Assembly (NCBI RefSeq): GCF_921293095.1
Contig: NC_060253.1
Span: 73,507,992-73,571,991 of the forward strand
Reading direction: 5' to 3'
DNA length: 64,000 bases
Source: Ischnura elegans
Lineage: Eukaryota; Arthropoda; Insecta; Odonata; Coenagrionidae
Positions within the stretch are counted from its first letter, which is position 1, and every line of letters starts with the position of its first letter. Position numbers and translations under genes: made by a program. The notes beneath the pieces were generated by a model. It did no database searches. It had not been told where the DNA came from and saw only the letters and a list, made by a program, of their open reading frames with translations. Of the stretch, positions 7,212 to 57,800 are shown piece by piece.

Positions 7212-8210
7212 TACGTATTCTTATCATGATTAATCATTGATAAATTCCAAAAATACAATAATTTTAAGCCATCGGATACTACGACGGCCGTTGTTTTCAA
7301 CCTTTGATAGCTCAGCAAAAACACCATGCAAGCGACCGGAGGGTACTGCGCAAACAGGGCAGCTGCACGTCCTCCGCACCATACGCTCAAGTCATTTTTC
7401 AACATAATTCTGTTGTAATTACTTAAAGTGATCTTTACGAACAAATTCCGTCGTTTTCGCCGACAGATCGTTCTTCCTCTTCATCGCCTTAAACCACTAC
7501 ACTCCTCTCGCTTCATTATTCATGACGACGAATATAATCTAATATAACGACGAATATATCTAATAAATAATTTCGTGATGTATTTGAACAAATAGGCACT
7601 ACGTAATATTTATAATTGTACATAAAAGCACTTCACGTAGGTAAAAACCAAGGTTCTTAGAGTAAAGGTTGCCTCATTCGCGACTCGGGCTCCCATTGGC
7701 TTGACGTCACTGTAGACCCAACTTCCAGAGCCATTTCAAATTCTAGCCTTTCCGCGGGCCTAACTGCTTACCGCAGCGAGTTCTTGAATTTACCCTCTAT
7801 CAAACACTATAAGCCGAATTTGAAATTGAAGGCCGATTTATGAAAATAATGATGATAAGATTTAAAAAAAAGATAAATTCGTGTATTCAGACGCCATAAT
7901 TTCCTGATGAAGTGATGAAATGGGAAGGTGTGCGAGTTGATTCCGTGTCCACACTTCCTTCCTGTAACTCTCAAAACACTGTTTTCCTTGCTACTTCCGC
8001 AATATAATTTAAACTTAGATTAATATGGCTGGGAGGAAAATACGCAAAAACCAAATTAGTTGCTTCAAAAAATTACAGTTCTGCAACTTTTTAAATAGAA
8101 ATTATGCTCGTTTTCATTCTTCGCCGGGCTTTGAAAATACAGACTGTCCCAAGGGTCGTGTGTCATTTTTGACCTGTAAATTTAGTAACTTTGCATCGAG
8201 CAATGTTCAT
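7212..8210. other. No gene recognised
   Basis: Mostly unremarkable sequence. Around 7645-7665 there is ACCAAGGTTCTTAGAG, which matches one arm of the small inverted repeat at 13268-13311. No coding signal. Confidence 0.4.
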
Positions 8211-8864
8211 GAAAATTAGCATATGTACTTATGGGAAAAGGTCCTAAGTTTTGTAGAGTGCAAGAAAAATTTTACAATTTTGACCTTTTGACCTCACAAT
8301 GTGGGTCCAAACCAAAAATTTCAATTTGCCTCGGAGGTCTAAAAATCAACACTACGGATCTATGAACTGCTTAACCGACTTTGGCACCCTTCAAAACCTA
8401 TGGTTTGACACGTTGGTTGTCATGATGGCCCGACGTTTAACTCTATGACCTTTGACCCCCATTGTGACCCTCGGAGGTCAATTAGTGAATAATAAGGGTT
8501 TTTAGACTTTACCAATGACTTGGGCACCCTATAAAACCCATGGATCGACACCTTTGTTGGTATACTATTCTTTTTGCCACCTTTATGACCTTGACGGTGA
8601 CCTTACTGGGTCAACAGTTGAATTTTCGTGAATAAAAGTATTATTTTCGAGTTTCTCGTGTCCGAAAACCCTAGAATAGTCATCTTGGTCAATGAAATTC
8701 AGACTTTTTTCTATCTCGATTTTTTAAACATTGAAACCCCATACGGCAAATTGAAATTTTTGGTTTGGACCCACATAGTGAGGTCAAAAGGTCAAAATTG
8801 TAAAATTTTTCTTACACTCAACGAAACTTAGGACCTTTTCCCATAAGTACATATGCCAATTTCG
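8211..8864. mobile_element. Foldback element with 120-bp inverted arms
   Basis: The left arm (about 8211-8330) and right arm (about 8745-8864) are near-perfect reverse complements, sharing CATATGTACTTATGGG, AAAAGGTCCTAAG and AATTTTACAATTTTGACC. The spacer is about 410 bases. Arms and spacer are unusually rich in TGACC(T) and GGTCA hexamers. No coding capacity; a non-autonomous foldback or long-TIR element is the simplest reading. Class unknown. Confidence 0.85.
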
Positions 8865-9450
8865 AAAATTTCTCAATAGCTCTCAAAGGCATACGAAAGG
8901 ACTCAAATTTATAAACTTAGTACTAGAAATTTGTTTACCTGATATCTTACCATTGGTACACGATGTTACTCATAGCATACGAGTTAAACAATGAATTTAC
9001 AAAATAGTCCCTGCATGAATGAGTGCGCAAAATATTAAGTTAAATTTGCCTTAAAAGGGAAGAATTCCAGATTTTCCAATGCAATAGGGGCATCTAAGTT
9101 CTTGATTACGAAATCTTTAGCATATCCACTTAGTTTGTCTGACCGATTCACTTTCACCACTTTCTTCACATGTGTGGGGGACGAGACACGGTCAATGATT
9201 CGATTAGTTAATATACACAATAAAAAAATTTTTCAATTTAAGCATCCGCCTGTGATATGAGACATTCCGTCTAGCTTTCTTCGTTTTCGACAAGCTGTTG
9301 GAGCACGTTGCCACAGTACAACGGCAGCCTGGCATATCCGACGATTAATGGCGCTCTTCACCCACAAAAAGTTCGTCTTATGAGTAGTGGATTACAAAGA
9401 CGATTTCCAGTGAAATTGCAGGAAATGTGTTCAGATTCGCGTTAAACGCC
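8865..9450. other. No gene recognised
   Basis: AT-rich sequence between two mobile elements. No domain-like frame, RNA gene or repeat seen. Confidence 0.4.
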
Positions 9451-9453
9451 TTA

Positions 9454-11365
9454 AGGCCTGGTTACACGGTACATGAGAATGTACAAGAAAATGTGAGAAT
9501 GTCTGAATCTCACAATGAAAACGAAAATGCACCGTGTAACCACGCAAAATGTAAGAATGTATGAATTTCTGAACGCCTGCTCTAATTTCATTCAGACAAT
9601 CATACAATTTGAACTCGGAGTCACCTGGTGGCAGAATACGAAAACGACACATTCATTTCATCTGGCTTGTATAGGCGACTTCTTTGTTTACGTACGGCCC
9701 CGATAGTTATTTCGATTTGATATGATCTTGCTTGACTTGGATATCTCACTGATTGGATATGGGTAGCGAAAGAATGGAACACAAGAAAAGGGGATGGGTA
9801 AAATGAAGGATCAGATGGAAAGGCGCTGAATGTATGAACCGCGAGAATTGTCCAAGATTGAGATCCAAATGATCGTTAAAAGGTCATAAAAAGCATGTGA
9901 TAGGCAAAGAAATAAGATTCAAGTACTATTTACGCTGTATTTACTCAAGTTCCTGTTTTTGAATCGAGACCGACTGCAAAGCGAGTCGAAATTTTAGGTG
10001 TTGCGTTGACATGCAGCGAACGTTATGGGCATCGCAGTAATAAATATTGAATTTACCTTGCCAAAAGCCTCATATTTCTCGTATATTCCTGTAGCGTGCG
10101 CCGATTCACAGGAGAAGGATGGAGAGAAATCACGACACACTCGCTTTCAAATCTAAAATTCAACTGCCTTTATTATGTCCTGTTTATTATATCACAAGGC
10201 TTAAGGGCACGAGAAATTTTGAAAATGTGCTTTTATTATGGAACACTACTATCCAACAAAATTTTAACAATATCGGCGGAAGACACTTTGAGAATATTCC
10301 TTGTTAGGGGCTCCTTGTGACGAGAGGCCGGCTGCCCATTACATTCCTTATTTTTCACCGTGGTTTAATCGTAATCAGTATTTATTCTCGTAAACAGCCA
10401 CTTTCCTTATAATTTGATCCTACAATGGGTAGAATGATAGGTACATTTATAGAGTTGTTTACAAAGTGAAATAAGTAACTTGATAAAATCCTGCGGTAAC
10501 CCTGATTTAATAGTGTACTTACGTTGAGGATATCCCGTTGACAATATAGATAATGTATTTGACTCCATTCTGTGGATCATCAACCACTCATTACTCTTAT
10601 TTTTGTCCCTTCGAACACAAGCAAAAAACTTCTCCGGCGAGTAAATAGAGGTTCTAGACGTCGGGGCACTTTATATGGTTTTATGGGATACACTATTTAT
10701 ATGGTTTTCACACGTTTTTCTGTTGAAGGTCCATGCTACAATATACTTACTGCATTAAGCAAATGATGTAGGTGTGTAACGTAGATCACAATCTGCAATC
10801 AACTTATTTTAATGTAATCTTTCCAAAGCCCCCAAACAATCGCCTTTATTTATTTCAACAACGCCTTGGCAACCCAATATATTCACAATCCGAAGTTTGA
10901 CGTTAAAGCAGCAATTATATTCGCCAAAGTTGCGTTTGAGTCCCTAAATAGACAGTTTTTCTATCCACTTCCTCAGTCTGTCATCAGTGGATTCCAGGCC
11001 GTGATGTAACGCGCGCACGCTCCGTCACGTGTTTTCAAACAGTCGATGAAGATTATTTTTAAAGACTCATATCTCAGCTATAAAACATTATTCATCCGCG
11101 AAATTTTCGGCAAGTACATTTGAGGTAAGGATCTTATTATTCTAGTACTTTAAAAAAAGTTTGCATGTTCCCCATTGGTTTATATTTGAAGTTGAAATAA
11201 TTTGTTGCGCATTAAAAAATGTACGAAAAAATGTCCGAAAAAATGTACCGTGTAACCACCTACTCGTGGATCTTGTCCATGAGAATGTACAAGAATCTGT
11301 TCAGAAAACCATTCAGACAAATGTACAGATTCTTGTACATTCTAATGTACCGTGTAACCAGGCCT
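9454..11365. mobile_element. PIF/Harbinger-like element, 1.9 kb, TTA target duplication
   Basis: The left end starts AGGCCTGGTTACACGGTACA and the right end is its reverse complement, closing CCGTGTAACCAGGCCT. TTA flanks both ends (9451-9453 and 11366-11368). A 3-bp TTA duplication with an AGGCC-type TIR points to the PIF/Harbinger superfamily. The subterminal 100-200 bases on both sides carry repeated ACCGTGTAACCA and AATGTACAAGAA-like words. No transposase is visible inside, so this is a non-autonomous element or a composite of two. Confidence 0.7.
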
Positions 11366-11368
11366 TTA

Positions 11369-11972
11369 AGAACCTTGGGTAAAAACTACTTCTTCCTGGC
11401 ATAGGCATACCGCAACAATCTCCTAACTCCACGCCTCGGACGTTAGCAACTCTGTTTGGGGAGAAATGACGTCACTCCTCTTGGACACACTACTTTCGCT
11501 CGCACCCCCCACTCCTCCATTTTGACCTTTAATATCTCGAAAACTACTGCTAGTAATGAAATTTCCCCCGGTAGATATTATTTCCTAGAGGTTTACGACA
11601 TTTTGACAGAGTTTTTAAAAAATGTGAAAATTCCCCATTGGATTTTCCAAGCGATAGAGAGCGGATGCGATAGCATATTGTGGTGTTATAAACGAAGTTT
11701 AAACGCACTGGTTACAGTATAAAACAGTTACAGTGAATAATACATCAATCACTTGAGTAGCAGAGGAAGAAAATAGTCATCTCGCACGGATTTGCAGTGA
11801 GCTACAGCCGGCGGAGTTCCGACTTCGACCAGCAGAGTTGGAAAATAACTCCTGCAAATAAAATATTGCATTTATTTCCTGCAATTGAATCTCATAATCG
11901 GTTCCATTCAGTGGATTTGGAGTTGATACCAAAGAGGAGATCTCGCCATCTATATTTTCCGCCACGTACATC
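11369..11972. other. Sequence upstream of the broken DUF4485-YqaJ gene
   Basis: Contains a TGACGTCA octamer near 11469 and GTATAAAACAG near 11717, about 255 bases before the ATG at 11973. These could be old promoter elements, but neither is diagnostic. The stretch around 11520-11660 weakly resembles 11040-11190, including the CCCCATTGG word. Confidence 0.35.
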
Positions 11973-14014
11973 ATGGAACGGATTTCAAAGAGAGTTGCCT
12001 CGAGCAACTCCGGAAGTGTGCTGGGCAACAGCCTGGAGGAGAGGCTGGATTATGAGTATATTGCCCACCTGGAGCACATTCAACCGAACTTGAATGGAAT
12101 GCCCAACGAGCTTCTCAATCAGGCAGAAAAATGGTTGATTTACCTGGTCGGAGTGACTACCAAAAGCCTGGAAGAGAGGCGAAACATCCACCTGTTCGTT
12201 CTCCTCAATGACATGGCATCCGGAACTCTCACGGGTATACACAAGAACACGAATCCCCAAAAGCCAGGGGAACCAATGCCTCCGCGTCCGAGAGCGTACT
12301 TCGACGACACTGCGGAGGAATCCCCGGTCGCGGAGGTCATTGGAGAAGACCTGAGCGACGCTTTGTGCTCAGAACTCAACGGAGAGGAAGGTGATGGTGC
12401 AAATTCGGCCAAAAGAGGGCGTGTTCAAGAGCATCCAGTGACACAAACTCCTGTCATCGCTAGTGACATCTCGCCCGGAGACACAAACCGTCCTTCCATG
12501 CCGGCTGAAAAGAAAAGAGAAGGACACGACCATGGAAGGGGTAACACCGACGTTCGTCCAGATGCCGAAGGTGAGGTAATAAATTCAATCCATTCCAAAC
12601 CTGTTAACCGTGGCACATTTAATCATTCTGCCGTGCCAACTGAACAGAATAAGGAAGGCAGAAACGAGGGAATTGGTCGCAAAAGTGCGAACCTCAAAGC
12701 AAAAGGTTATTTGATTAAGGCAAAAGGCAGACGCGAGGAAACAGATTACACTAATACTCGTGCCAGTGTTGAATTTGTGGTGTTAAATTCTCAGCTTTCC
12801 TCACCAAAAAATCCTGGAGCTTCATATCGTTCTTGCGTGCCAGCTAAACGGAAGGCAGAAAGCAGGGATGAAGAAAAGGGTTACAAAAATGGAAACCTCA
12901 ACGCCAAACGTTTCGCAATAAATGCACGCCATATTGAATCAAAGCAAGCTGGTGGCTTTAAAAGGTCAGATGGGAAGAGAATAGCTGGAGAGAATGTCAC
13001 AATGGGATGCACGGATACACACTTCCATGGCGAAGGAAATGTCGTATATCCTATCGACGTCGACATAACAAACGAACGCATTTATTCCGGCAACTTTAGA
13101 CTTCTTCCATCCAAGAGTAAGGAATTAAAAGGAAAAATGCTATTGGTGGCGAGAGTCCTCTCTTTCATGGGAACGGTAACGTTATTAATGCACGCCACTT
13201 CTCACCAGAGCAAGTTTATGATTTGGAGAATTCTGATACGCCGCCTAAGAAGAAAACATTGTGCCATACCAAGGTTCTTAGAGTTAAGAACCTTCTAAGA
13301 ACCTTGGTGTCATACCACACAAATGGGATCCAATGACACTTTCGGCCGTGGTGAAGGTGATCTATCAGAGCCCATGTATATCCCAATAGAACGTGCTGAT
13401 TCCCAAAGGGGACTGGATACCACGCCAGAAAAGTGCCGTTGCAGCAAGCTACCATTTAGGTCGCTTGGGGGCCATTTTTGCATATAACGAGGAACTGTTT
13501 TCTTCAGAGGAAACAAGGCTACAGATTGGGGAAATGCTAACGAAAAATCTGCCATCAGGGAATATGAGTCTTCAATCAAATATAAAGTTTTACCCGCAGG
13601 TCTCTTTTTTGATGACAAATTACCTTCTTTGGCTGCTAGTCCTGATGGGGTAATATCTGATGGTGAAGGCTTGGTTGAAATCAAGTGCCCCTATAATTGT
13701 AGGGATATTACTCCTGAGAAAGGAGTTAAAAATAAAAGAGCTACCTTCATGGAAGTGAAAGAAGGAAAATATAAGTTACGCAGGAGAAACAGATATTATT
13801 ATCAAGTACAGGGACAGCTGGAAATATGGGATAAAAAATATTGCGATTTTATTGTGTGGTCTCCTCATGGGATTATAATTGACAGAATTCAAAGGGAAAG
13901 CAGTTTTGGGCCACAGCAATGGTGGATAAATCAAAAGAGTTCTACCTGAAGTTTATGTTGCCTAAAATATGGCAGAATACACCTGGTTACAATAAATTAT
14001 TGTACCGGAGTTGA
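11973..14014 (+). pseudogene. Broken fusion gene: DUF4485-like, repeat linker, YqaJ-type nuclease
   Basis: From the ATG at 11973, residues 26-90 are helical and fit the DUF4485 pattern, with an EYIAHLEHIQP-like start, a central K-W-L-I-Y-L helix and RNIHLFVLLNDMASGTLTG near its end, then a proline run. A long charged disordered linker follows, with degenerate repeats (PSMPAEKKREG, SAVPTEQNKEG, GEGNVV, GNGNVIN, GEGDLSEPMYIP). The C-terminus is a YqaJ/lambda-exonuclease-type domain: a G-x-x-x-E-x-x-A motif (DWGNANEKSAIREYE, 13524-13568), catalytic D and E-x-K in SPDGVISDGEGLVEIKCPY (13638 on) and a YYYQVQGQLEIW motif near 13795. Such domains are metal-dependent 5'-3' exonucleases. The frame shifts near 13136 (A run), around the inverted repeat at 13268-13311, near 13420, near 13500 and near 13920, then ends at 14012-14014. 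I therefore read it as a decayed gene. A multi-exon gene is less likely because the junctions lack good splice sites, except a TTTTCTTCAG before 13507. Confidence 0.7.
13268..13311. repeat. Short inverted repeat inside the broken gene
   Basis: ACCAAGGTTCTTAGA and its reverse complement TCTAAGAACCTTGGT flank an 11-14 base loop. The insertion sits between two linker repeat units and interrupts the frame. Related words occur near 7645 and at 11366-11376, so it may be a tiny MITE. Confidence 0.75.
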
Positions 14015-14366
14015 TGTTTTTTAATCAATCCTTTCCCTCAACTTTTTACCCTTCATTTCTCTTTGCACACCGGCCTCCTGGAGACTAAATATGGTAATAT
14101 TTTATCCCTGTATATCGCGGTGCGGCCAACAGCAGCCTTCTGCCCCGGCCATTGGTTTTTCCTGGATTATCGCATATATATTATGGCATGGCTGAGTAAG
14201 ACGCATTTTTCTTTTCTCGACCAATTTTATAAATTAATTAATATTGTAACGAATTTAAGTGTGCTTACAATATGCTATACATCGAAATAATTAATAGCTT
14301 TCAGCCGCGCGAACCACATTGTTTATCGAGTCACGCGCGCGTCAAAAGTTTCCGGCTTTAGCCTTA

Positions 14367-14600
14367 AGGCCGTTTTACACGAGGCACGGAATTGCGCAGG
14401 TTAGAGCTGCATTAATTTCTAAAATGGCGCGGAATTGCGCGAATGCATGAACGAAATTAGAACAGTGGCTGTTTTGCCGTCTCGCATCCACGCATTCTCG
14501 CATGTATTCTAGCAATTCACCGCTAACCACGACGCAATTTTGATTGCGCCTTCGCACGTACGTCAGATTGCGCAATTCCGTGTACCGTGTGAAACGGCCT
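14367..14600. mobile_element. PIF/Harbinger-like MITE with TTA target duplication
   Basis: 234 bases starting AGGCCGTTTTACACGAGGCA and ending in GTGTGAAACGGCCT. TTA lies on each side (14364-14366 and 14601-14603). The interior repeats GGAATTGCGC(A) words in both orientations. TIR and duplication match the type of the 1.9 kb element at 9454, but interiors differ. No coding capacity; likely mobilised by a PIF/Harbinger transposase elsewhere. Confidence 0.85.
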
Positions 14601-14603
14601 TTA

Positions 14604-15586
14604 GAGATGGGATTCTTACAGGGTAATGAGATCGCAATAGATGAAGTTACTAATTCCACCTCTGAATACCCTTCACCAATTGTGAACCGAGTCGAAATTT
14701 TTCTGTGCTGCGGCGCGACATTAATTTTCTCCGGGCATTTTCAAACGAGTAAGATAAAAAAAATGAGGATATCATGACTCCTCAGCTTCAGTGCCGATTA
14801 CAGCGCTACAGACTTCAAAGTTAATAAAAAATTAATTTTGCATGATCCCAGGGGAGTTGAGATTTAATAACTGCGTATGAATTTTTATAAATGTAATCAT
14901 AAACACGTATATGTATCATATGAAATAGACCACTTGTAAAAATTTTCGAATTTTAAGACATACTTTCACCTTTCACACTTGGAGTTGAAGCTTTCGAAAT
15001 AGAGGTAATTTAGGATTCCTCCCAGCTGTACTAAAAATTATGCTGTCGTTGCCATAATAGGAAAAAAATATAATTGAAGTGCGCAATAAAACGGAGCATT
15101 GAAGTAATATAAACGTGGATTTTGTGAAGGATTGCAACAACAAACGGTAGAGAGAAAAATGAAACTGCAATTTACGAAAGTGATACACGATTTCTCGCGT
15201 TCTCGTTTCGATCAATTATATTGTGCAATATTGGTTACCGGCGTGGAATAAGTCAAGTCATACGGTCTATTTTATTTTTATATCATAAATTATAAACTGC
15301 AATCTTATTTACGATGCATTCATTGGGGTACAGGATGAATAGAAATGGGACACCGTGAAGAAAGCGAGCGGAATTCAAAGCGGGAACTATCCAGAGAAAA
15401 AGAGACCGACCGAAGGGCTGATCAACTGAAGTAACAAAAAAAACACAAAGTGAGTTTTTTGGGCCTCAAGAGTTTTTTTGCAACACAAACAACTCCTTGA
15501 GGTCTGCCTAGGTCACCCGAGATCCCGACCGCCAGCGGACCGAAATCTGACACCGCATAAGGAGAGCTCAGTCCCTCTCCCCAACC
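14604..15586. other. Intergenic; possible 5' leader of the next gene
   Basis: The first 800 bases are AT-rich without signals. From about 15440 the composition becomes pyrimidine- and GC-richer, ending in CTCCCCAACC just before the ATG at 15587, as expected of a 5' leader. No firm promoter element. Confidence 0.35.
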
Positions 15587-16308
15587 ATGAATTCTTCTTC
15601 GCTCTCGAGTCCCCCTTCCACCCAGTCAACTTCCCCTCCAATTCAAACTTCAGCGGTCGCTTTCGGAATTAAATGCCAGCGACCGTTGTCGCGGAGTTCT
15701 CCCGAAGTATCCTATCCCCTTAAGGGGAATTGGATAGTACAATGGACTGCGATAGCCCTCATCTTGATACCGAAGGTGACGCTATGAACCCAAGCAACAT
15801 ACCATCTCGGCATTCGCAAGAGGAGAAAATAGTTGGCCGTAACAAACTAATTGGATGCAATCATGTTCACTGCCCTGATGAAGGGGATTTTTCAAATCCA
15901 ATTTATATCCCATCAGAACGTGTTGACGCCATCAACTATCCTTATATGCTGGCTGAAGACGATAGACAGGAATGGGACCATAGAGTAGACCGCGAGAACC
16001 CATACCAGCATACCGAAGGTGCTGCTGAAAACGAAAAATACATTCCATCACAACAACCTAGTGCCTTCCACCATCCTCACGAGCCGGCTGACCAGATGGA
16101 ATTCTGTACCCATGGAAGGGACGCGATGAATCCTCGCTTCCAAGCTGAATATGACTTTGGGTATCCATGCCAGCTTGAGCCCACAGAAGATTGGGAAGAA
16201 CGGGAAGGTGCGATGCCTGGTGACAGGTTTGCAGCTGATCCTCCAGCACCGATCTATCCATCATCCGCTATCTACCAAAGACATTCATCCGAAAATGTAA
16301 ATACATAA
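15587..16308 (+). pseudogene. Repeat-linker protein, paralogue of the 12-14 kb gene, with one frameshift
   Basis: The ATG at 15587 opens a Ser/Pro/Thr-rich leader (MNSSSLSSPPSTQS). The frame must shift by one base at the G run near 15724 to enter the long frame from about 15727 to the stop at 16306-16308. That frame is acidic, Pro/His/Asn-rich and built from repeats: TEGDAMNPSNIPS, DEGDFSNPIYIPSER and TEGAAENEKYIPS, spaced 36 and 45 residues, each followed by an N/H-x-P-x-x-x-A-E/D stretch. The same module occurs in the linker at 12.4-13.4 kb (for example GEGDLSEPMYIPIER). No DUF4485 or nuclease domain is seen nearby. It may be a partial tandem duplicate, an exon group of the same ancient gene, or a gene spoilt by a one-base sequence error. 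Function unknown; low complexity suggests disorder. Confidence 0.6.
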
Positions 16309-17115
16309 TCCAAATTGAATTAGAATACTTTTGCCGAGTGTTGAGGGTTTCCTTTCTCTGAGGAACATACGAAATATATAGCGAGCATCGATTTCTGTGC
16401 GTGAGACCAGCTATGAAAAGGCGAAAACCTAGATTCCGCGGTGTATCTGATAGGGTGTTTAATACGATGGCGTTTTTTCGTGTCGTTTCTTTCGATTGGA
16501 ATTAGCATTTAAGTGAGTAATCACGAAGGAGGAGTAATGTTAATATTTCAACCAATACCGTAGATGAAGTAAGATACAGATGGGAATGTATGAGAATAAT
16601 TCATAGACAAGTGCACAAAAATTGCAAAAAGAGATGAACTGCTAAAATCCTTGACGGTGAAATAATTCAAACAAGTTCACATGCTCACTTGAACGACTTA
16701 ATCGCACAACAAATTATTTGTCTTAACACTCTCTCTTCTTCCGGCGAGTCAAAGACCATTGCTAATGATATTTGAATCCTAATAAATGGTAATATACTTT
16801 ATCGTTACTGATTCTTACGGTATATTTTTTCAAGACGATTAAAGTTACAAAAATAATGAAAATTTGAAATTTTCACAAAGAGCTCGTTTACCGTTATTTT
16901 TACATTTATTGAGATAACTTTTTAAATACGGAAGGATCTAATTTTTTCCGTTTTTAATTGCGTCACCCACTTCCCGAGTTCTTCGCGACGAAAATTTTAT
17001 GGTCATCGCCCTCTCGCACAAAAGTTGATGAGGTAAACAGCACAATCCAATCTCGTCACCGCTTCTCAGATAATCCTTGATCTTGTGCATTTGTCTCGGT
17101 TGGTTTGCATTCTCG
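16309..17115. other. No gene recognised
   Basis: AT-rich sequence after the repeat-protein frame. No domain, RNA gene or repeat seen. Confidence 0.4.
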
Positions 17116-17123
17116 CTAGCAAT

Positions 17124-17413
17124 CAGTGGCAGATCCAGAGAGGGAGTATAAAATATGCACTTAATTCAACTTAATATTGTCGAATATATACATGAGAGAA
17201 TAGCCACTAAAACACAAATTACTAAAAATTCACATAAATGTTTGTTTAAAAAAGTTAATTCTTTGAAAAATTAGTAATTGGACAACGCTAATATGTTGTT
17301 ACAAGCTTCGAAATCCTCTAAATTTTCGTTACCTCTCCGACCCCCCCTAGTGCTGGGAAGTGACCCCCAGGACCGCACCTAGCCCCCTTGTCCCTATCCT
17401 GGATCCGCCACTA
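17124..17413. mobile_element. hAT-type MITE, GGATCCAG-ended
   Basis: The left end starts CAGTGGCAGATCCAG; the right end inverted starts TAGTGGCGGATCCAGG. Flanking octamers CTAGCAAT (17116-17123) and CTAGCGAT (17414-17421) differ at one base, an 8-bp target duplication typical of hAT. C-rich runs lie inside the right end and the core is AT-rich. The termini resemble those at 43750 and 46033 but the interior differs. Confidence 0.88.
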
Positions 17414-17715
17414 CTAGCGATAACTCCCTCAATATATGATCTCCTAAAAACGAAAACTTGAACCATAAAATACAATGAAGTTACCAACTCGTGGAAACTG
17501 GGTGACAAATTTCGTGTTTTCTTACATTGAACTTAAAGGAGAAAAAATACATGGAAAGGATGTTTTTGGTCGAAGCTTATCGTAATTATCTATAAAAAAT
17601 TCTTTCAAATAGTTGCGACTTTCTGTGTGAACGACACCATTCAAAATTTAATTCTCTTAATACATTGGAGATCAGCTAAACATGATCCATAACAATATGT
17701 TTTCTTTTTTCACAG

Positions 17716-18169
17716 ACGAATCGCATGGATTACGGCAATGCATGGGAAGGTGGAAAAAGAAGACATTACCACATCATTGCCGTTCATCCATGGAGGAAAG
17801 AAACCAGTACCAAGACAGAACTGGATTTCTGGGAAGAATGGTAGCTGGTGAAACCTGCGAGGAAGACGGTGGAGAGGTACATCAGATGTGGCTTCCGATA
17901 TCCAAGAGTACGAAGAAATGGTACACGAATTGAAAATACTTGAGAAGAAGAGGAACTCCTTTATAACGGCATACAACGAAGGGCTGGAGAGACTGTCGAA
18001 GCTGAATGTACAACCCCAGGTTGTAAGAATACTACATGGCACAGTGCTGGATAACGTCACATGCAAGATAAATATGATAAAATTACAACTATCACAAATG
18101 GATCAATATTATGGAATTGATATCCAAAACATTATTCACTCTCATCAACCTATGAGGCAATATTATTAG
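17716..18169 (+). pseudogene. Unassigned coding segment with coiled-coil-like C-terminus and one in-frame stop
   Basis: A pyrimidine tract and CACAG (to 17715) precede a frame running from 17717 to the TAG/TAA region at 18166-18169, broken only by a TGA at 17849. Before the stop it contains FIHGGKKPVPRQNW. After it comes an Arg/Gly/Trp-rich patch, then a heptad-like helical region (EYEEMVHELKILEKKRNSF), then LNVQPQVVRILHG and a second amphipathic helix. The length of coherent amino-acid composition across the stop suggests real coding ancestry. I do not recognise the family. It lies 1.4 kb downstream of the repeat-protein frame and could be its 3' exon, or an unrelated relic. Confidence 0.45.
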
Positions 18170-18960
18170 TTTCACTGTTCTTATGTCACAATAGGTGATC
18201 ATGTTCCAAATTATATTTATTTGCTCTTTGTAAAATCAAAATTGTTAGTTGTCACGCATCCTGTTCATACAATGGCATGAAAAATTGTGTTAGAGCAGTA
18301 GGTCATTCACGATGAGCTATACTAGCTTAAATGATATTAATCGAACGCTTTCATTTTGGTGATTTTTCAATTCGGTGTGTTAATGTGATTTTTCCCTGCA
18401 TGGCCAAATTGTCCTACATATCATGATCCATGTCACCAAAGGCATCGTCACAATATCACCATGGCATGGAAAGTACCAAATTGCATTTCATTGAATGTAC
18501 CTAGGAAAGCATTAAAATTTGATGACGTGGTTGGCTATCTAATTGCTTTGCATTATAATTTTTTACCCTTACTCACCCATTGATCTCCATAGGTTATATA
18601 TTCCACCGAATTTCATTATTTGAATAGCATCCAGTACGTGTTTATTTTTGATCAACGACCCAGAGCTGTTTGCTAATTATATGTCCAGTTTTTTTGTTTT
18701 TAATTATTGCCACTATAAATCTTTATTTATGCCAAATTAAGTTAGAATGACGCGACCACTATCCACGTACTAGTTCAGGGATGGCGAAAATGACGGCTTA
18801 TATTTAGACTCTCCCACGTAATAATTTTCAGAGATGGCAGGGATGATCTCAGTCCCTATTTCCATAATTTTTTTCATTGAGTTTTCCGTCACTGAACACT
18901 TACGTGGAATCAACCTAAGTATTTTTTTCAATCGAATATATCGAAAATGTAGGAAAAAGA
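18170..18960. other. No gene recognised
   Basis: AT-rich flank of the preceding coding-like segment. No motif or repeat noted. Confidence 0.4.
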
Positions 18961-20640: not shown

Positions 20641-20645
20641 TGAAC

Positions 20646-21272
20646 AGGGTAGTTTCCTTCATCAAAGAAAACGAAAGGCATTGATTGCGATTCGTTACCC
20701 ACCATTAGTGTAATCATAATATACAAATTATTTGGTTTTAGAAATACCAGTTTAGACGAATGTTAATGGGCAATTTTAACTTCAATTGAAAAAGGCCAGG
20801 TTGGCGCCCATGCGATGCCACTCCACGCGACGTCAGAGGGACCTAGATTCTATACGAGTGGTCAGGAGTTTTACATAGTGTGATATTATCAATGCATGCA
20901 TGTAGCACAGAGCTCAGGGAAATATCTCTTAATAATCACCTGTTAAAATTGCCTAAGGTCGGAATGTTTCCTTCGTTTGATAGGGTATTAATAATTCTAA
21001 AGCCAAGCGCTACCTGCTAGCAGCCTGCATCTTATCGGCCGAAGGTCACCTCACACGGCGGCAGCTGGAACCAGAATGACGCCACACGGGCTATTCCCAG
21101 CATTCATACTTAGCCGTCGCGTTTCCGCGTGCTTGGAAATGTTCACCTTTCATTTAATCGCAGAAAACAGATATCGTCCTAAATATAAATCTAAAAGCCT
21201 TAAATGCATACTCGAGAAGTAAATATCTTTCGATGTAGGCAATAAAAAAATAATAGGAAACCGCCCTATCAC
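20646..21272 (+). repeat. 650-bp interspersed repeat, family E copy 1
   Basis: Begins GGTAGTTTCCTTCATCAAAG and ends near AATAATAGGAAACC. It is colinear with 28886-29555 (plus) and 51045-51650 (minus). Shared landmarks: TTATTTGGTTTTAGAAATAC, TTGGCGCCCATGCGAT, GACGTCA-like, GGGACCTAG, GCGCTACCTGCTAGCAG, TTTCATTTAATC. No coding frame is conserved. Clear TIRs were not found, so the class is open (SINE, LTR or MITE). Confidence 0.88.
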
Positions 21273-23599: not shown

Positions 23600-23800
23600 A
23601 GAATTTCCATAATAAAAAACTCCCCTGGACCGGGAATGGAACCACGGACCCTTGGCTTGCCGGGCCACTGCGCAGACCACTACGCTATCCACGTTCTTTA
23701 ATTCCCACAGCAATTACATTCACGGCAATTACACGGCAATTTTTCTCATGGCAATTTTTGTATGTTTCACCGCCGCACAGTGGGGCCAAATCTATAAAAG
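23600..23800 (-). repeat. tRNA-derived SINE
   Basis: The minus strand carries box A-like TAGCGTAGTGGTCTGCGC and box B-like GGTTCCATTCCC with pol III spacing (about 23620-23690). A body with repeated AATTGCC words follows. The same ATTGCCATGAGAAA and CATGGCAATTT words flank the MITE at 39897-40162, showing another copy of this SINE there. It is not a functional tRNA: the stems do not pair well. Confidence 0.65.
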
Positions 23801-26346: not shown

Positions 26347-28885
26347 AGACATTTGGGAAGTGAAAGGAGGGGGGCGGGTGGAGAAGGGGGAAGTGAGCCC
26401 ATGGCAAGCAGAATGACATACTTAAGCCCTAGGAGTAGTACCTAAAGGAGGAATTTGTAGCCGAAATGGGCCATTCGATTCGTAAAGGAGCTGAAGTATC
26501 CTACACTATCCCGCCTTCCGTGGATCAGCTCCGCCAAAGAAAGGACCAAGATGACTACATGCAGGACGCCCCAGTCCTTCCCGTGGAAGCTTGATTTTTG
26601 TTACCATTTTGGGCGCATTTTAATTGGTTTTTCTCAAATTTCCGTTCCGTGGCGCTGAGTGCAGAGCGATTCATGGAATCCCAATATTCACAACATAGCA
26701 GTGCTGTTGTTGGGAAAAAAATTTAGCGGTACTCACCAAAAATTGCCAACGGCTGAACATGTATTATACATCCGGCCGCGATTGAAATCTCAGACTCCAA
26801 CTCTTACATTAGTTCCAAGTTGTGCCACGAGATAAATCTGAGCAAGTAAATAATCATTTCCGAGTTTTCTTTCTGAAATCCATTGGACAATTTACAGAAG
26901 GCCTATTTTATTACAGATTTAAAAAGGTAGTTTAACCGGTACGCTTATAACGAGTTTGGATTTTAGGGGGTACGCCGTACCGGCCCATACCGACCCAACT
27001 ACAGCACTCCAACATAGTACTGGTAATCGCGGAGAATAGAATTCGATAAGAAATTAATTCTATATATAACACCATAAGGAAGAAAAATTTCTGCAACCTG
27101 CCTTAATTTTTTCTCAATTCTACGTGATATTCGGATCGTTCTTCACGTGAGAGGCGCTGGTGGCAACTTCATTAAACCCATTTGAATGCGCAATGGGCGA
27201 CAACGCCAATAGAGGCCAACTACAGAATCGTCTAATGCAATATTCGTGGAAGGGACAACTCCCCCTTCATAACACACTGCTGCGAATGCACTGAAGCATT
27301 CTAATTAATGGAAAGCATATGACTATAATTAATTTCAAATTTGGCAACAAAAAACTTGATCAAGAGCCAATATACACCAGTTTTTATGAAGTAGGCTCAT
27401 CTAGTCCAGATATCAGCTGCGCTGTGCCGTAAGCTTTTGATTGGGCTGTAATGAGACTAATCTGCCCGTGACCCCTGAAAGCCTGCTGCCACTACTCTGC
27501 TATCACATATCTTACCTTTGCACTCTGGTACACGACGTTCTTCACGTTTCCGGTGTTCTCGTGTTCCAGACCATTGCCGTGTCCATTTCAGGTCACCTAG
27601 ATAGTCCGCCTTTAGCCGATGACTGGCATTTCAATTCGTTTTGCTCTAGCACACCTCACTGATTGAAGTCTCCTGTCTTCCTCTTCCATTGCGCTTGAAC
27701 AACAGAAGAAGAATATGGTCAGCTGCAAGCTTTTTATACCTCGCGGAGGATCGAGTATCCCCTCCTTTTTCTGGATTGAGACGCCCACCTGACTTACCAA
27801 AAAATTGCAAAGTCAACTAGGGCGTTGAGAAAGGATGATATTGTCCTCCACTTATTCGTGAATTAGGGAACCCGGCATTGAAAAGTCAGACAGCTTGTCA
27901 TTTTGACGTACGAAATAAAAGCTAATGACGTCAAAATACTCATTTTATACATGAAGGGAAGTAATTGTATTCACACATCAAAAGACTCAATTTTTGGCCG
28001 GCCAAAAGTTTTAAAGGCAGAGGGTGGGATTCCATCTCAAAAGCATTGAGCGAATGACGCATTGCTATCAGTTGTTGCTGCGTGTTGAATTAAAGTGGAG
28101 AATGGGGCAGAGGATAAAAGGGATGCTGAAATGGGCTGGATTTAAGAACAGTAGCAGCGATTCAGAATCAAATTGGGGGAGGGGTCATGACCTGGGTCCA
28201 GAGAGTATGGAATACCCCACGGGAGAGAGGGGGCTTCTACCGAGTAGAATATTTTGAAATACCCATTTTTCATGCATTTTGGAGCCTAAAATTAAATTTT
28301 TATTCTTAATATCACATGAAGTTGAATATTTTTTTAGCCATTTAAGGCTATAAAAACTATTAAAATATTAGATATTTAAATTTTTGATAAAATTTGTGTG
28401 GGGGGGGTCATGACCCTTGTGAGCGTCTCCTTGAATCCACCTCCGCGCTTTAGGAATACAGGAGGGAACGCTAGCCCAAGTGGCATTGACGGATTAAAAG
28501 GACTTAATTTCAGGAAAAGTAGAAATAAAGGTGGCTCTCGGATGAAAGTTTTTTTTATTTACCAGCTTTACAACGCTCAAGATAAGTGATGTATATATAT
28601 AAACCCGGAATAGAATTCCAACCTTTTACGCATTAGCGTTGCGAGTAATTGCATACCAATAAAGGCGCCGTGCTTTTCCCTTGGGCAACAACCTTGTCGC
28701 GGTGGAAAGGCTTGCGAGTTCCTATGACCCCTACAGCTGCACTGGCGGGATAAATTATAAATTATTCCCGGTAGGGCCACCCATACCAGATAGGTCAAAG
28801 GTGTAAAGCAACGCGAGCGAGTAATGTGAGACTAAAGATAAAGGTGGGTGGGGAAAAACTTAGTCCGGCAGTTAGAGCAATACGG
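26347..28885. other. No gene recognised; minor repeats
   Basis: About 2.5 kb without a gene. The stretch near 26640-26690 (AAATTTCCGTTCCGTGGCG) recurs in diverged form near 32105-32150. Around 28180 and 28408 the words GGGGTCATGACC flank an AT-rich core, a MITE-like arrangement. A GC-richer stretch at 27440-27670 has an open frame with no recognisable domain. Confidence 0.35.
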
Positions 28886-29555
28886 TAGTTTCTTTCATCA
28901 AAGAAAACGAAAGGCATTGATTGGGATTCGTTACCCACCAGTAGTGTATTCATAATAAACAAATTATTTGGTTTTAGAAATACCACTTTAGATTGATGTT
29001 AATGGTCAATTTTAACCTCATTTGGAGAAGGCCAGATTGGCGCCCATGCGATTGCGCTCCACGTGATGTCACAGGGACCTAGATGACGATGGACGACACG
29101 ACCATCGAAACGTCGGCAGAGATGGAGAACCTCATACGGTGGGAAACCCGAAACAACTTCAACATCATCATAGGCCGGGATAACCTCAGATCTACCTTTC
29201 CTTCGTTTGATTGGGAATTAATAATCCTTATTTAAGCAAAGCGCTACCTGCTAGCAGGGTAATCTACGCTACCGCCATGCTCGGCAGCAAGCAGCCTGCA
29301 TCGTAAGCGCGTTTATAGCCTCGCACCCAGGTGTCCTCACACAGCAGCAGCAAAACGTCACACGGGCTTTTCCCAGCATTCATACCTAGCCGTCACGTTT
29401 TCGCGTGTTTGTAAACGTTCACTTTTCATTTAATCATGAAAAATAGATATCGTCATTAAAAAATCTAAAAGCGTGAAATATGTACTCTAGGAGTAATAAT
29501 CTTTCGATTCAGGCAATAAAAAACATAATAGGAAACCATCCTATTCAACTCTTTA
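28886..29555 (+). repeat. 650-bp interspersed repeat, family E copy 2, with replaced middle
   Basis: Colinear with 20646-21272 at both ends, but the middle 120 bases after GGGACCTAG are replaced by a different 110-base sequence (29085-29197). An additional 35-40 bases follow GCTAGCAG. Confidence 0.88.
29085..29197 (+). mobile_element. Penelope-like or related terminal segment with hammerhead-like core
   Basis: Contains GATGACGATGG, nine bases, then CCATCGAAACGTCGGC. The two arms GATGG and CCATC can pair, leaving GATGA on one side and GAAAC-GTC on the other, the layout of a hammerhead ribozyme core as reported for Penelope-like elements. The CUGAUGA box is degenerate (UAGAUGA), so it is probably inactive. 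The following CATACGGTGGGAAACCCG also looks repeat-derived. Confidence 0.4.
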
Positions 29556-44313: not shown

Positions 44314-45275
44314 GAATCAATTCCACTCCACCTCACTTGATTCCTCGAATTTTATATCGACTCAATACTCGACTTGAGATCAAGGATTGCTACTCGCATA
44401 TCCCTATTGGTTTGTATTCAGCATTTCACTTCATAGCATGTGTGAGGTGGTAAAGGCATCTTGAACATTGAGCTCTCAATTTGAGTGAGCACTGAAGTAT
44501 CTGATACACTCACTCTTCTTTTGAGAGGAGTCTGAGGGATCAGCTTCACTCAGTGAGTTTTTGGCCAACTAATATAACAACTGAGTATAGTTTTGATTGA
44601 TGAGTGAGGAAAATCTCCACTCAAGTGACACTCAGAACTGTGGCCCATAGTTTTTTGAAACCTTGTTTAGAAAATAAAAATCTGTTGATCACACAATTGT
44701 TTGTCTGTGATTACATTACTTGTATCACAGTTCCACAAAATACCGCTATATATTTGTTAGCTGGAGTTTCGTTAGCATCATTAACAGCATTCCTCTTCCT
44801 AATTTATAACTTGCTCCAGAGGGGGAAGAGAGGTTAGGAAAACAGGGGAGAAAGATAAAGGTGAAAACTATATTTTCTGATCGGGAGCAAGAGATGAGTT
44901 ATGAAAACATCGAAAAGGAGGGAGGGGTATTCTTCCATATATGTAGTAGTGTTATAATTCATCGTAACCACTTATTACCTAGACTAAGAAATCTTAGTTA
45001 ACCAGATAAATAAGACTGTTTTTCTAAAAATTTAATGGATTATAATGCATCAAATTTTAATCTTTCCAGTTCACAAACCAGGGACAAAGATAAAAGTAAG
45101 TTGAGAAAGATGAGACAAGTTCGCCATTAAAAAAAATTATGACACACTATGGAAACTTTTTGAGGAACACTTGAGGAAAACATGAAAAGAAAAATGAAAG
45201 CTCCACCAAATCAACCCATATAAAAATAAATTCTATAAAATTTGATGACTCATAATGGAAGAAGAAAATACCTAC
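44314..45275. other. ZNRF intron sequence, no gene seen
   Basis: AT-rich intronic sequence up to the splice donor at 45275-45274 (minus). Nothing else recognised. Confidence 0.4.
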
Positions 45276-45381
45276 CCTTTGTGGTATATGCAAAGGCAAG
45301 GAAGTCTGGCAATAGTATCACCCTGCATGAGGTCTTCCAGGCAAATCACACACTCTCCCTTGTTCTCTCCTAAAACATCCT
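45276..45381 (-). CDS. ZNRF1/2: ZNRF1/2-type E3 ubiquitin ligase, penultimate exon
   Basis: The minus strand has a pyrimidine tract and GGCAG acceptor (AG at 45383-45382). A 106-base exon follows, then donor GG|GTAGGTATT at 45275. It encodes, after a split codon, DVLGENKGECVICLEDL and MQGDTIARLPCLCIYHK, ending two bases into a Gly codon. This is the first half of the ZNRF RING-H2: C-V-I-C, then C-I-Y-H. D-V-L-x-x-x-x-G-E-C-V-I-C-L-E and Q-G-D-T-I-A-R-L-P-C-L-C-I-Y-H-K are nearly invariant in this family. Phase is consistent at both ends: 2 bases, 34 codons, 2 bases. The exon with the N-terminal zinc finger and myristoylation site is not visible, so the gene probably extends beyond 64000 on the minus strand or lies in sequence I could not read. 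Confidence 0.95.
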
Positions 45382-45505
45382 CTGCCATGGCCGAGCACAT
45401 GTAAAGAAAAAAATAAGAATCATGAGAATTGTATAAGATCATCAGAAACTTATTCTGGATATAGAGTACATAACATCGGCTATTAGCAAATAGGCCATTA
45501 AAACA
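45382..45505 (-). other. ZNRF intron next to the acceptor
   Basis: Contains the polypyrimidine tract TTATTTTTTTCTTTAC upstream of the acceptor. The open frame continues through the acceptor into this sequence by chance; it is not conserved ZNRF protein. Confidence 0.6.
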
Positions 45506-46590
45506 TCCCAGTAAACACAATGTGTAGCGGAAACGTTGCACGAGTGTTGCAAGAGGTTGCAGGAAGCAGCTAGGCTTTTGGCAACATTTCTGCAACGTCT
45601 TAATTACGTCGCTGATACACTCATTTGGTCTGAAAAATTATATAGCGTAATATTTTAGCCAGAGGATATACATATTTAAATCAGATTCTATTCGTGAGAG
45701 ATTGATTGTATGTGAAGGTGGAATGTTCATTAGGTTGCAGAAAGGTTGCAACATGTTGTCGGTCTCTTATTTGGACATTGTTTTCCCCAAACATATATTC
45801 ACATATGAGGTTTTTAAAGTGTATTTTCATCTTCTGAAGCAAAGTGCCTCTCACAATAAAAAAAAATATTCGGCTCTAAGACAATTTTGTCGCACTTAGA
45901 AAATTTTGAAGCATACGAGCAGGGGTGAAGAGTATATGGAAACCCTGTATTGAGATAAAGAAAGGAAAGACGGCACGATACCGATATGTATATTTGGTGC
46001 ATCGAAAATATCGATATTTGCATATTCAAAACCAGGGGCGGATCCAGGATTTCTTTCTGGAGGGGCACAAGGCGTAATACAAAACGAGCACAATGATAAT
46101 GGGACCGTATTAAAAATCTTGTATTGCAAATTTTTAAGGGTCTGGGGGGGGGGGCACATGCTCCCGTGACCCTCCCCCTAGATCCGCCTATGTTCGAAAC
46201 ATCGAACACGTTGCTACTCTGTCTCTATCCCTCCAACGCTTGCATTTTTCAGTGAGGTTTTGTGCTCTGCGAATTTTGAAGAATGTCTATAATTAAAATC
46301 TGTCATGTCATGAATAAATATTTTTTTTTTCTTTAAAGGCATATTGTGAGTATTATTTTGAAGGGTTGCATAAATGTTGCAAGTGCGTTGCAGGAGTTGC
46401 ATAAATGTTGCAGAACTGTTGTAAATATGTCTCACCAGAGGTTGCGAATACATTGCCATTACGTTGCAAAAATGTGGTAGAGAGGACTTTTGGCTGGTTT
46501 TGCGATGCTGTGATTACGTTGCAGCAGCTCCATGTTGGTTGCAGCGCAATGTTTTTGCAACATTTTCACAACACTATTGGTTTACAGGGA
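45506..46590. mobile_element. GTTGCA-rich element with TCCC(A/T)GTAAAC ends
   Basis: Starts TCCCAGTAAACAC and ends GGTTTACAGGGA, short inverted termini. Both sides carry many spaced copies of GTTGCA and TTGCAAC words: 45535-45600 on the left, 46365-46570 on the right, for example ATAAATGTTGCAAGTGCG and GTTGCAGGAGTTGCATAAA. The middle holds the hAT MITE at 46033-46192. About 925 bases without that insert. No transposase seen; class unknown. It sits in the ZNRF intron about 125 bases upstream of the penultimate exon's acceptor. Confidence 0.6.
46033..46192 (+). mobile_element. hAT-type MITE, GGCGGATC family, nested
   Basis: Left end CAGGGGCGGATCCAGG; right end inverted CATAGGCGGATCTAGG. Flanking octamers TTCAAAAC (46025-46032) and TTCGAAAC (46193-46200) differ at one base. 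Inserted inside the GTTGCA element; related copy at 43750-43900. Confidence 0.9.
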
Positions 46591-51044: not shown

Positions 51045-51650
51045 ATAGGAAGGTTTACTATATTTTTTTAATTTCCTAAATCGAAAGATTATTACTCTTG
51101 GAGTACGTATTTCACGCTTTTCGATTTTTAAATGACGATATCTATTTTTCGCGATTAAATGGAAAGTGAAAAATTTCAAGCACGCGACCCGACCATAGGC
51201 AATTTTAATATGGCTATGAGCGCCGATACGATGCAGGCTGCTAGCAGGTAGTAGAGTACCCTGATAGCAGGTAGCGCTTGGCTTAAATAAAGATTATTAA
51301 TACCCAATCAAACGAGGGAAACTTTCCAACCTTAGGCAATTTTAATAGGTGAATATTACGAGATGTTTCCCTGAGCTCTGTGCCTCATGGATACATTGGA
51401 AGTCTCAGACGATGTAAAGCGCCTATCTACTCGTATAGAAACTAGGTCCCTGTGACGTCACGTGTAGTGGCATCGCATGGGCGCCAATCTGGCCTTTTTC
51501 AAATGAAGCTAATATTGACCATTAACATTCGTCTAAACTGGGATTTCTAAAACCAAATAATTTGTATATTATGAATACATTAATGTTGGGTAACTAATCA
51601 CAATCAATGCCTTTCGTTTTCTTTGATGAAGGAAACTACCCTATTATTTA
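51045..51650 (-). repeat. 650-bp interspersed repeat, family E copy 3
   Basis: Inverted copy of 20646-21272 with the complete middle section (GGGACCTAGTTTCTATACGA, then CACAGAGCTCAGGGAAACAT). It ends in GAAACTACCCTATT at 51632-51645. Confidence 0.88.
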
Positions 51651-57474: not shown

Positions 57475-57553
57475 AAACTGTCGTATGTGATCATAGTATT
57501 TTTACCTTTTAAGTCTAAACTAAGTGAATCGAATGAAGAAAAAAATCAAAGTT

Positions 57554-57800
57554 AAACAATAGTGTCATCGACGATAAACGATTGTGCCATCGAAGGTAAA
57601 CGATGGTGCCATCGAAGGTAAACAATAGTGCCATCGACGGTAAACGATGTTGCTATCGAAAGTAAACGATAGTGTCATCGACGGTAAACGATGGTGCTAT
57701 CGAAAGTAAACGATGGTGCCATCGACGGTAAACGATGGTGCCATCGACGGTAAACGATGGTGCCATCGACAGTAAACGATAGTCCCATCGACAGCTACCG
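57554..57800. repeat. 22-bp minisatellite, 11 units
   Basis: ATCG of the unit recurs exactly every 22 bases from 57567 to 57787. Unit: ATCGACGGTAAACGATGGTGCC with variants GAAGG, GAAAG, GTGTC and TGCTA. Each unit boundary forms the near-palindrome CGATGG-TG-CCATCG, so single strands could fold into a ladder of hairpins. No coding role inferred, although 22 x 3 keeps a frame open across it. Confidence 0.95.

Follow-up and report, generated by a model that had tools for sequence, protein, structure and literature searches.

On the plus strand of the window (the whole 64-kb stretch of DNA analyzed), we read positions 11973-14014, with a probability of about one half, as a decayed chimeric gene composed of a DUF4485-like head, a repeat linker, and a YqaJ nuclease. 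When intact, the gene probably specified a protein with a DUF4485-like head, a long and rapidly evolving linker of repeats, and, at the C-terminus, a YqaJ domain of the phage-exonuclease type; the present copy is likely dead. The parts, order, and damage proposed in the initial annotation are borne out, i.e., the reading frame changes, an in-frame stop codon precedes YqaJ, and the N-terminus of YqaJ is absent. The extent proposed there holds these parts, but linker-type sequence also occurs outside it, at 15724-16308. The features are as follows.

11973-12299, plus strand: N-terminal region with a DUF4485-like match over residues 25-95 (PF14846, E 1e-4, 22.6 bits, cut-off 24; GC3 0.62).
12300-13130, plus strand: repeat linker in the frame of 11973; an open frame with internal repeats and without a Pfam or NCBIfam match.
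13121-13270, plus strand: probable continuation of the linker in another frame (change at approximately 13128-13142), with weak shuffle support.
13268-13308, no strand: imperfect palindrome inside the linker (self-inverted match, 84% over 43 columns).
13320-13403, plus strand: linker unit, again in the frame of 11973, with a DNA and protein match to the second ORF.
13404-13502, plus strand: junction matching neither linker nor YqaJ in shuffle and HMM tests, with an in-frame stop at 13485-13487.
13503-13946, plus strand: YqaJ nuclease fragment, profile positions of approximately 48-146 of 150, five active-site positions retained (PF09588, E 9.6e-13).
13991-13996, plus strand: AATAAA sequence motif, a candidate polyadenylation signal (11.9-18.4 kb contains seven such motifs).
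15724-16308, plus strand: second ORF of 194 codons with the same linker repeats and without YqaJ (tblastn and shuffle tests).
17716-18169, plus strand: candidate exon by which the second linker gene would continue downstream (preceded by an acceptor-like site that ends at 17715; no family above cut-off).

The window has a GC content of 38% and contains MITE-type inverted repeats and 16 stop-to-stop frames of at least 120 codons. Its character is eukaryotic, and an arthropod source is plausible. The unit is opened by a stop-to-stop frame of 466 codons at 11898-13298 (441 codons from the ATG at 11973), which is the longest of the 7288 stop-to-stop pieces in the window; no frame as long arose in 2000 simulations of 2.1 kb with matched dinucleotide composition. 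The 153-codon frame of YqaJ is unremarkable in length, which was reached in 243 of the 2000 simulations. G is enriched at codon position 1 (0.35 in the head and linker, 0.30 in YqaJ, and 0.35 in the second ORF), whereas its frequency is 0.16-0.22 at positions 2 and 3. GC3 declines along the unit from 0.62 in the head to 0.37-0.44 in the linker and 0.32 in YqaJ, which could be a sign of different origins.

The DUF4485 match of the head was obtained in a Pfam search of the first 109 residues (E 1e-4, 22.6 bits, residues 25-95). The match became weaker with longer queries, i.e., 21.7 bits with 142 residues and 18.9 bits (E 0.0015) with all 441, and the score was below the curated cut-off of 24 bits at all three lengths. 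None of five shuffled heads gave any match in the same kind of search. The DUF4485 N-terminus of the initial annotation, placed at residues 26-90, is therefore covered by a match, but by one under the cut-off; the head resembles DUF4485 proteins in that the profile matches the N-terminal part of the frame, and it differs from them in this score. The AF2 model of the head, with single-sequence input, consists mostly of strands with a pLDDT of 54, and the only matches to DUF4485 among solved structures are two variants of a designed knot protein (E 2.5e-4 and 1.7e-3). Five comparisons of the head with linker pieces revealed no similarity (245-486 of 500 shuffles were as good), and a close-relative scan of viral contigs found no close relative of the head. 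Within the literature collection searched, DUF4485 occurs in two papers, none combines it with YqaJ, and the accession PF14846 is absent.

The degenerate repeat linker that had been described from the translations is confirmed. Residues encoded at 12546-12725 and 12750-12929 are identical at 24 of 60 positions with a score of 101, which none of 500 shuffles reached (best, 51). Five linker pieces, with the second ORF among them, form ten pairs. Four of these pairs scored higher than every one of 500 shuffles; 2 of 500 shuffles equaled another three, and the last three were equaled by 22, 27, and 46 of 500 shuffles. The piece at 13121-13270 was equaled by 2 of 500 shuffles in the comparison with 12750-13130 and by 27 and 22 of 500 with two other linker pieces; these values weakly suggest that the linker probably continues there in the other frame. 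The linker has no family match in Pfam or NCBIfam and would be disordered. The differences between linker copies are distributed over the three codon positions as 8/7/8 in 27 codons and 21/23/27 in 60 codons, and therefore there is no clear third-position excess. The 191 codons tested in the second ORF remain open, which was the case in 8% and 3% of runs simulating drift at 10 and 15% per site, respectively; this openness despite divergence faintly hints at a fast-evolving coding linker. Part of one arm of the palindrome at 13268-13308 (AGAACCTTGG) recurs at approximately 11369, after the right end of the element at 9453-11366.

The DNA of 13299-13403 matches 15825-15930 (0 of 1000 shuffles as good), with 48% protein identity over 27 amino acids (tblastn E 1e-4). 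The matching segment sits in the 194-codon ORF at 15724-16308, approximately 2.4 kb downstream, near which no YqaJ was found. Because this second ORF has the linker without YqaJ, linker and nuclease need not belong together, and the one-gene reading is weakened. The second ORF may continue via a moderate donor at 16297 to the acceptor at 17715; the frames at these sites do not agree simply, so the second linker gene may also be damaged. The candidate exon at 17716-18169 contains a 95-amino-acid open frame (17882-18166) in a different frame, which belongs to no known family, and 17700-18200 had no DNA similarity to the linkers beyond that of shuffled sequences. Close-relative scans of viral contigs found no close relative of the second ORF or of the downstream exon. 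A GATA-N match of the second ORF (E 0.027, under the cut-off) was disregarded.

The YqaJ profile (PF09588) matches 13488-13949 at profile positions 48-146 of 150 with an E value of 9.6e-13 and 49.1 bits against a curated cut-off of 22. All four motifs listed in the initial annotation (G-x-x-x-E, PDG, E-I-K, and Q-V-Q-G-Q) are present in one frame; the core of the domain and its motifs are thus upheld, but the first 47 or so profile positions were not found upstream. The NCBIfam lambda-exonuclease model TIGR03033 gave an E value of 3.6e-12, but its 46.7 bits are below the cut-off of 68. Profile matches to PHROG exonucleases agree with the YqaJ assignment, and the lambda exonuclease sequence matches at E 1.5e-7. 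The fragment matched 199 phage records at an E value of 1 or better, the best being the exonuclease of Pseudoalteromonas phage H103 with 34.7% identity; the identity to viral-contig loci was 32-37% for the ten best of 80 listed and 28-39% across the list. Close-relative scans of viral contigs and prokaryotic genomes found no close relative of the fragment, and the 64-kb window contains no second YqaJ (best other match, E 0.73).

In an alignment with one one-residue gap before E129, and with the 226-residue chain of 6m9k taken as native numbering, lambda positions 85, 109, 119, 129, and 131 correspond to E19, D43, D53, E64, and K66 of the 13488 frame, respectively. We take E85, D109, D119, E129, and K131 to be the catalytic residues of lambda exonuclease. 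The AF2 model of the fragment, built from the window sequence and 28 viral-contig relatives, has a pLDDT of 86 and a pTM of 0.83, and the solved structures that it matches best are LHK-Exo (3syy, E 2e-8) and lambda exonuclease (1avq). The alignment behind this model was chosen by YqaJ similarity, and the fold result is therefore not independent of the sequence match. The fragment resembles the YqaJ/lambda-exonuclease family (PF09588; 1avq, 3syy) in its predicted PD-(D/E)XK core fold and the five active-site positions, whereas it is without approximately the first 47 of 150 profile positions and follows a repeat linker at a locus of eukaryotic appearance.

The missing part amounts to approximately the first third of YqaJ, with its near-invariant W, R, and S columns, and the profile match starts at 44-50. 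Homology begins eight residues ahead of the WG motif (FRGNKATDWG); in 35 of the 80 viral-contig relatives fetched, some of which are cut, mis-started, or mis-matched by the [WYF]G pattern, a median of 59 residues (range, 3-125) precedes this motif. No YqaJ N-terminus was found upstream in the frame-0 read-through, the frame-1 composite, or the frame-1 peptide, and a six-frame scan of pieces of at least 15 residues with an N-terminal HMM of the 28 viral-contig relatives placed no upstream piece among its eight best rows. The frame-1 peptide at 13390-13502 (W...VAAS) was dropped as a candidate N-terminus because it had no score in the 28-protein viral-contig HMM, in which 815 of 1000 shuffles scored, and because a composite search extended the profile match by only four positions at its start (48 to 44), with a gain of 1.9 bits. 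At the other end of the fragment, a frame change near 13930 (frame of 13931-14014) was suspected solely from animal YqaJ proteins and is not claimed here.

YqaJ begins 99 bases after the linker similarity stops, on the same strand. The in-frame stop at 13485-13487 lies in this junction, and TTTTCTTCAG ends just past it, at 13507. No match to the linker was found for 13406-13505 (409 of 1000 shuffles as good). An initial alignment in which the linker reached 13499 was ruled out by a split test, in which 13299-13403 was significant and 13406-13505 was not.

The possible mobility raised in the initial annotation, with flanking TIRs to be looked for, is not supported by the sequence; no inverted pair of at least 20 bases brackets 11973-14014 in the searched region of 8000-18000, and the window lacks a second YqaJ. 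Inverted matches between 11367-11973 and 13950-15750 are 9-12-mers only, a count made with no chance control. Two direct pairs straddle the unit, at 9969/14675 (27 nt, 81%) and 9448/14361 (21 nt, 86%). The latter pair is formed by similar ends of two small elements; both of these ends have an inverted partner of their own and TTA flanks. The inverted pairs at 9453-9508/11311-11366 and 14363-14398/14569-14604 are both flanked by TTA and both begin with AGGCC, and for these reasons each looks like a separate small element, of a type resembling PIF/Harbinger MITEs. One of these MITE-like elements (14361-14604) lies just downstream of the YqaJ piece, and the other occupies 9453-11366.

Elsewhere in the window, a dispersed repeat is present in three copies in both orientations (20643-20995, 28879-29084, and 51293-51645; approximately 89% alike), and a minisatellite at 57553-57792 has a 22-base unit in 10.9 copies with 85% matches. 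A tRNA match on the minus strand at 23622-23694 scores 36.8 bits in Rfam (cut-off, 29) and is absent from the ARAGORN output. On the minus strand, 45272-45637 holds a RING-finger exon (zf-RING_11, E 3.2e-5, 24 bits against a Pfam cut-off of 27) that looks to us like ZNRF1/2.

The chimeric gene is supported by the common strand and order of the parts, the 99-base gap, and the G bias by codon position that the named frames have in common; head, linker, and YqaJ would then once have formed one protein. Counting against it are the sub-cut-off DUF4485 score, which is lower still in the full frame, the low-pLDDT and strand-rich model of the head, the linker without YqaJ at 15724-16308, the unmatched bases at 13404-13502, the drop in GC3, and the three of ten linker pairs that are not significant. 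Of the combined three-part protein originally proposed, the parts in their order remain, but the single unit does not stand equally well, as the linker array without YqaJ and the 99-base junction also fit a secondary join. In such a join, a deletion or insertion would have placed a damaged DUF4485-linker gene next to a fragment of an unrelated YqaJ gene, and the parts would never have been one protein. We regard this as somewhat unlikely and yet as a serious rival: YqaJ starts abruptly without its N-terminal third, 13404-13502 matches neither part, a linker array without YqaJ lies approximately 2.4 kb downstream, and the base composition drops at the junction. On the other hand, the parts are tightly spaced on the same strand, and repeat searches at 20 or 40 bases revealed no insertion signature, although a short target-site duplication would escape searches that require these lengths. 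A slightly more doubtful proposal is that the locus is what remains of an undescribed animal gene family that fused a DUF4485 head and a rapidly diverging repeat linker to a phage-type YqaJ nuclease, with a neighboring sister at 15724-18169 that has the linker but another C-terminus, i.e., a small tandem family of linker proteins that swaps its ends.

It is improbable that the locus is a live spliced gene in which the donor AAG|GTGAGG at 12571 is joined to an acceptor at 13507 or 13509, thereby removing the damaged linker. The donor has the top score in 11960-18300 (in a hand-made matrix), TTTTCTTCAG precedes YqaJ, and the 12571/13509 pair would drop most of the damage and join head and YqaJ in frame, as calculated by hand; however, approximately one in three site pairs is in frame by chance. 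Furthermore, 13507 is absent from the three sites that passed the acceptor filter, the donor lies within an AAGGTG motif that recurs in other linker units, the F of the F-x-G-N common to relatives is at 13503, upstream of the acceptor, and splicing would not restore the N-terminal third of the nuclease. Some of the frame changes could conceivably be intronic. The least probable of these readings is an autonomous mobile element to which the present gene belonged and of which this is a dead copy. This reading would accord with the two short direct pairs that straddle the unit and, in the available parts of the sources, with the filtering of YqaJ as TE-related in weevils (PMC13289751) and its appearance in a clam as one of the endogenous viral elements that have expanded (PMC7826175). 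However, the 9448/14361 pair belongs to the ends of the two small elements, the 9969/14675 pair is a short two-copy match of a kind often due to chance, and neither a bracketing inverted pair of at least 20 bases nor a second YqaJ was found in the regions searched.

If the chimeric gene is the correct reading, the head and linker of the intact protein would, judging from the families, bring it to a partner or place it, and the YqaJ part would use the two-metal PD-(D/E)XK chemistry known from lambda exonuclease to degrade or trim the ends of DNA, an activity expected from homology. A working enzyme is unlikely from the present copy because of the frame changes, the upstream in-frame stop, and the loss of the first third of the nuclease.

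Besides the weevil and clam cases, the available parts of further reports record YqaJ (PF09588) with +6 among the tabulated gene families of the ladybird Novius pumilus (PMC8805230), expression of YqaJ in phylloxera larvae (PMC7601026), and YqaJ among the contracted families of a scallop (PMC10225492). The locus has its Pfam domain in common with these genes from insect and mollusc genomes, where it forms, in several cases, a multi-copy family of varying size. Since YqaJ has already been reported in insects and molluscs, the nuclease part is, as far as these sources extend, ordinary, and any novelty would lie in the DUF4485 link only. HGT-chimeric genes, for which the available part of one study gives 104 independent origins in 319 arthropod genomes (PMC13389597), would be alike in joining an animal-type part to a phage- or virus-like part, whereas the copy described here is damaged; the available portion of the main text of that study does not name nuclease, exonuclease, recombinase, or YqaJ.

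The locus is real, damaged, and modest in interest. If the parts were not joined, nothing more unusual is present than a cluster of broken genes that includes one YqaJ fragment. If intact relatives join all three parts, they would represent a new animal reuse of a phage-type recombination nuclease and would provide a functional context for DUF4485, a domain of unknown role.
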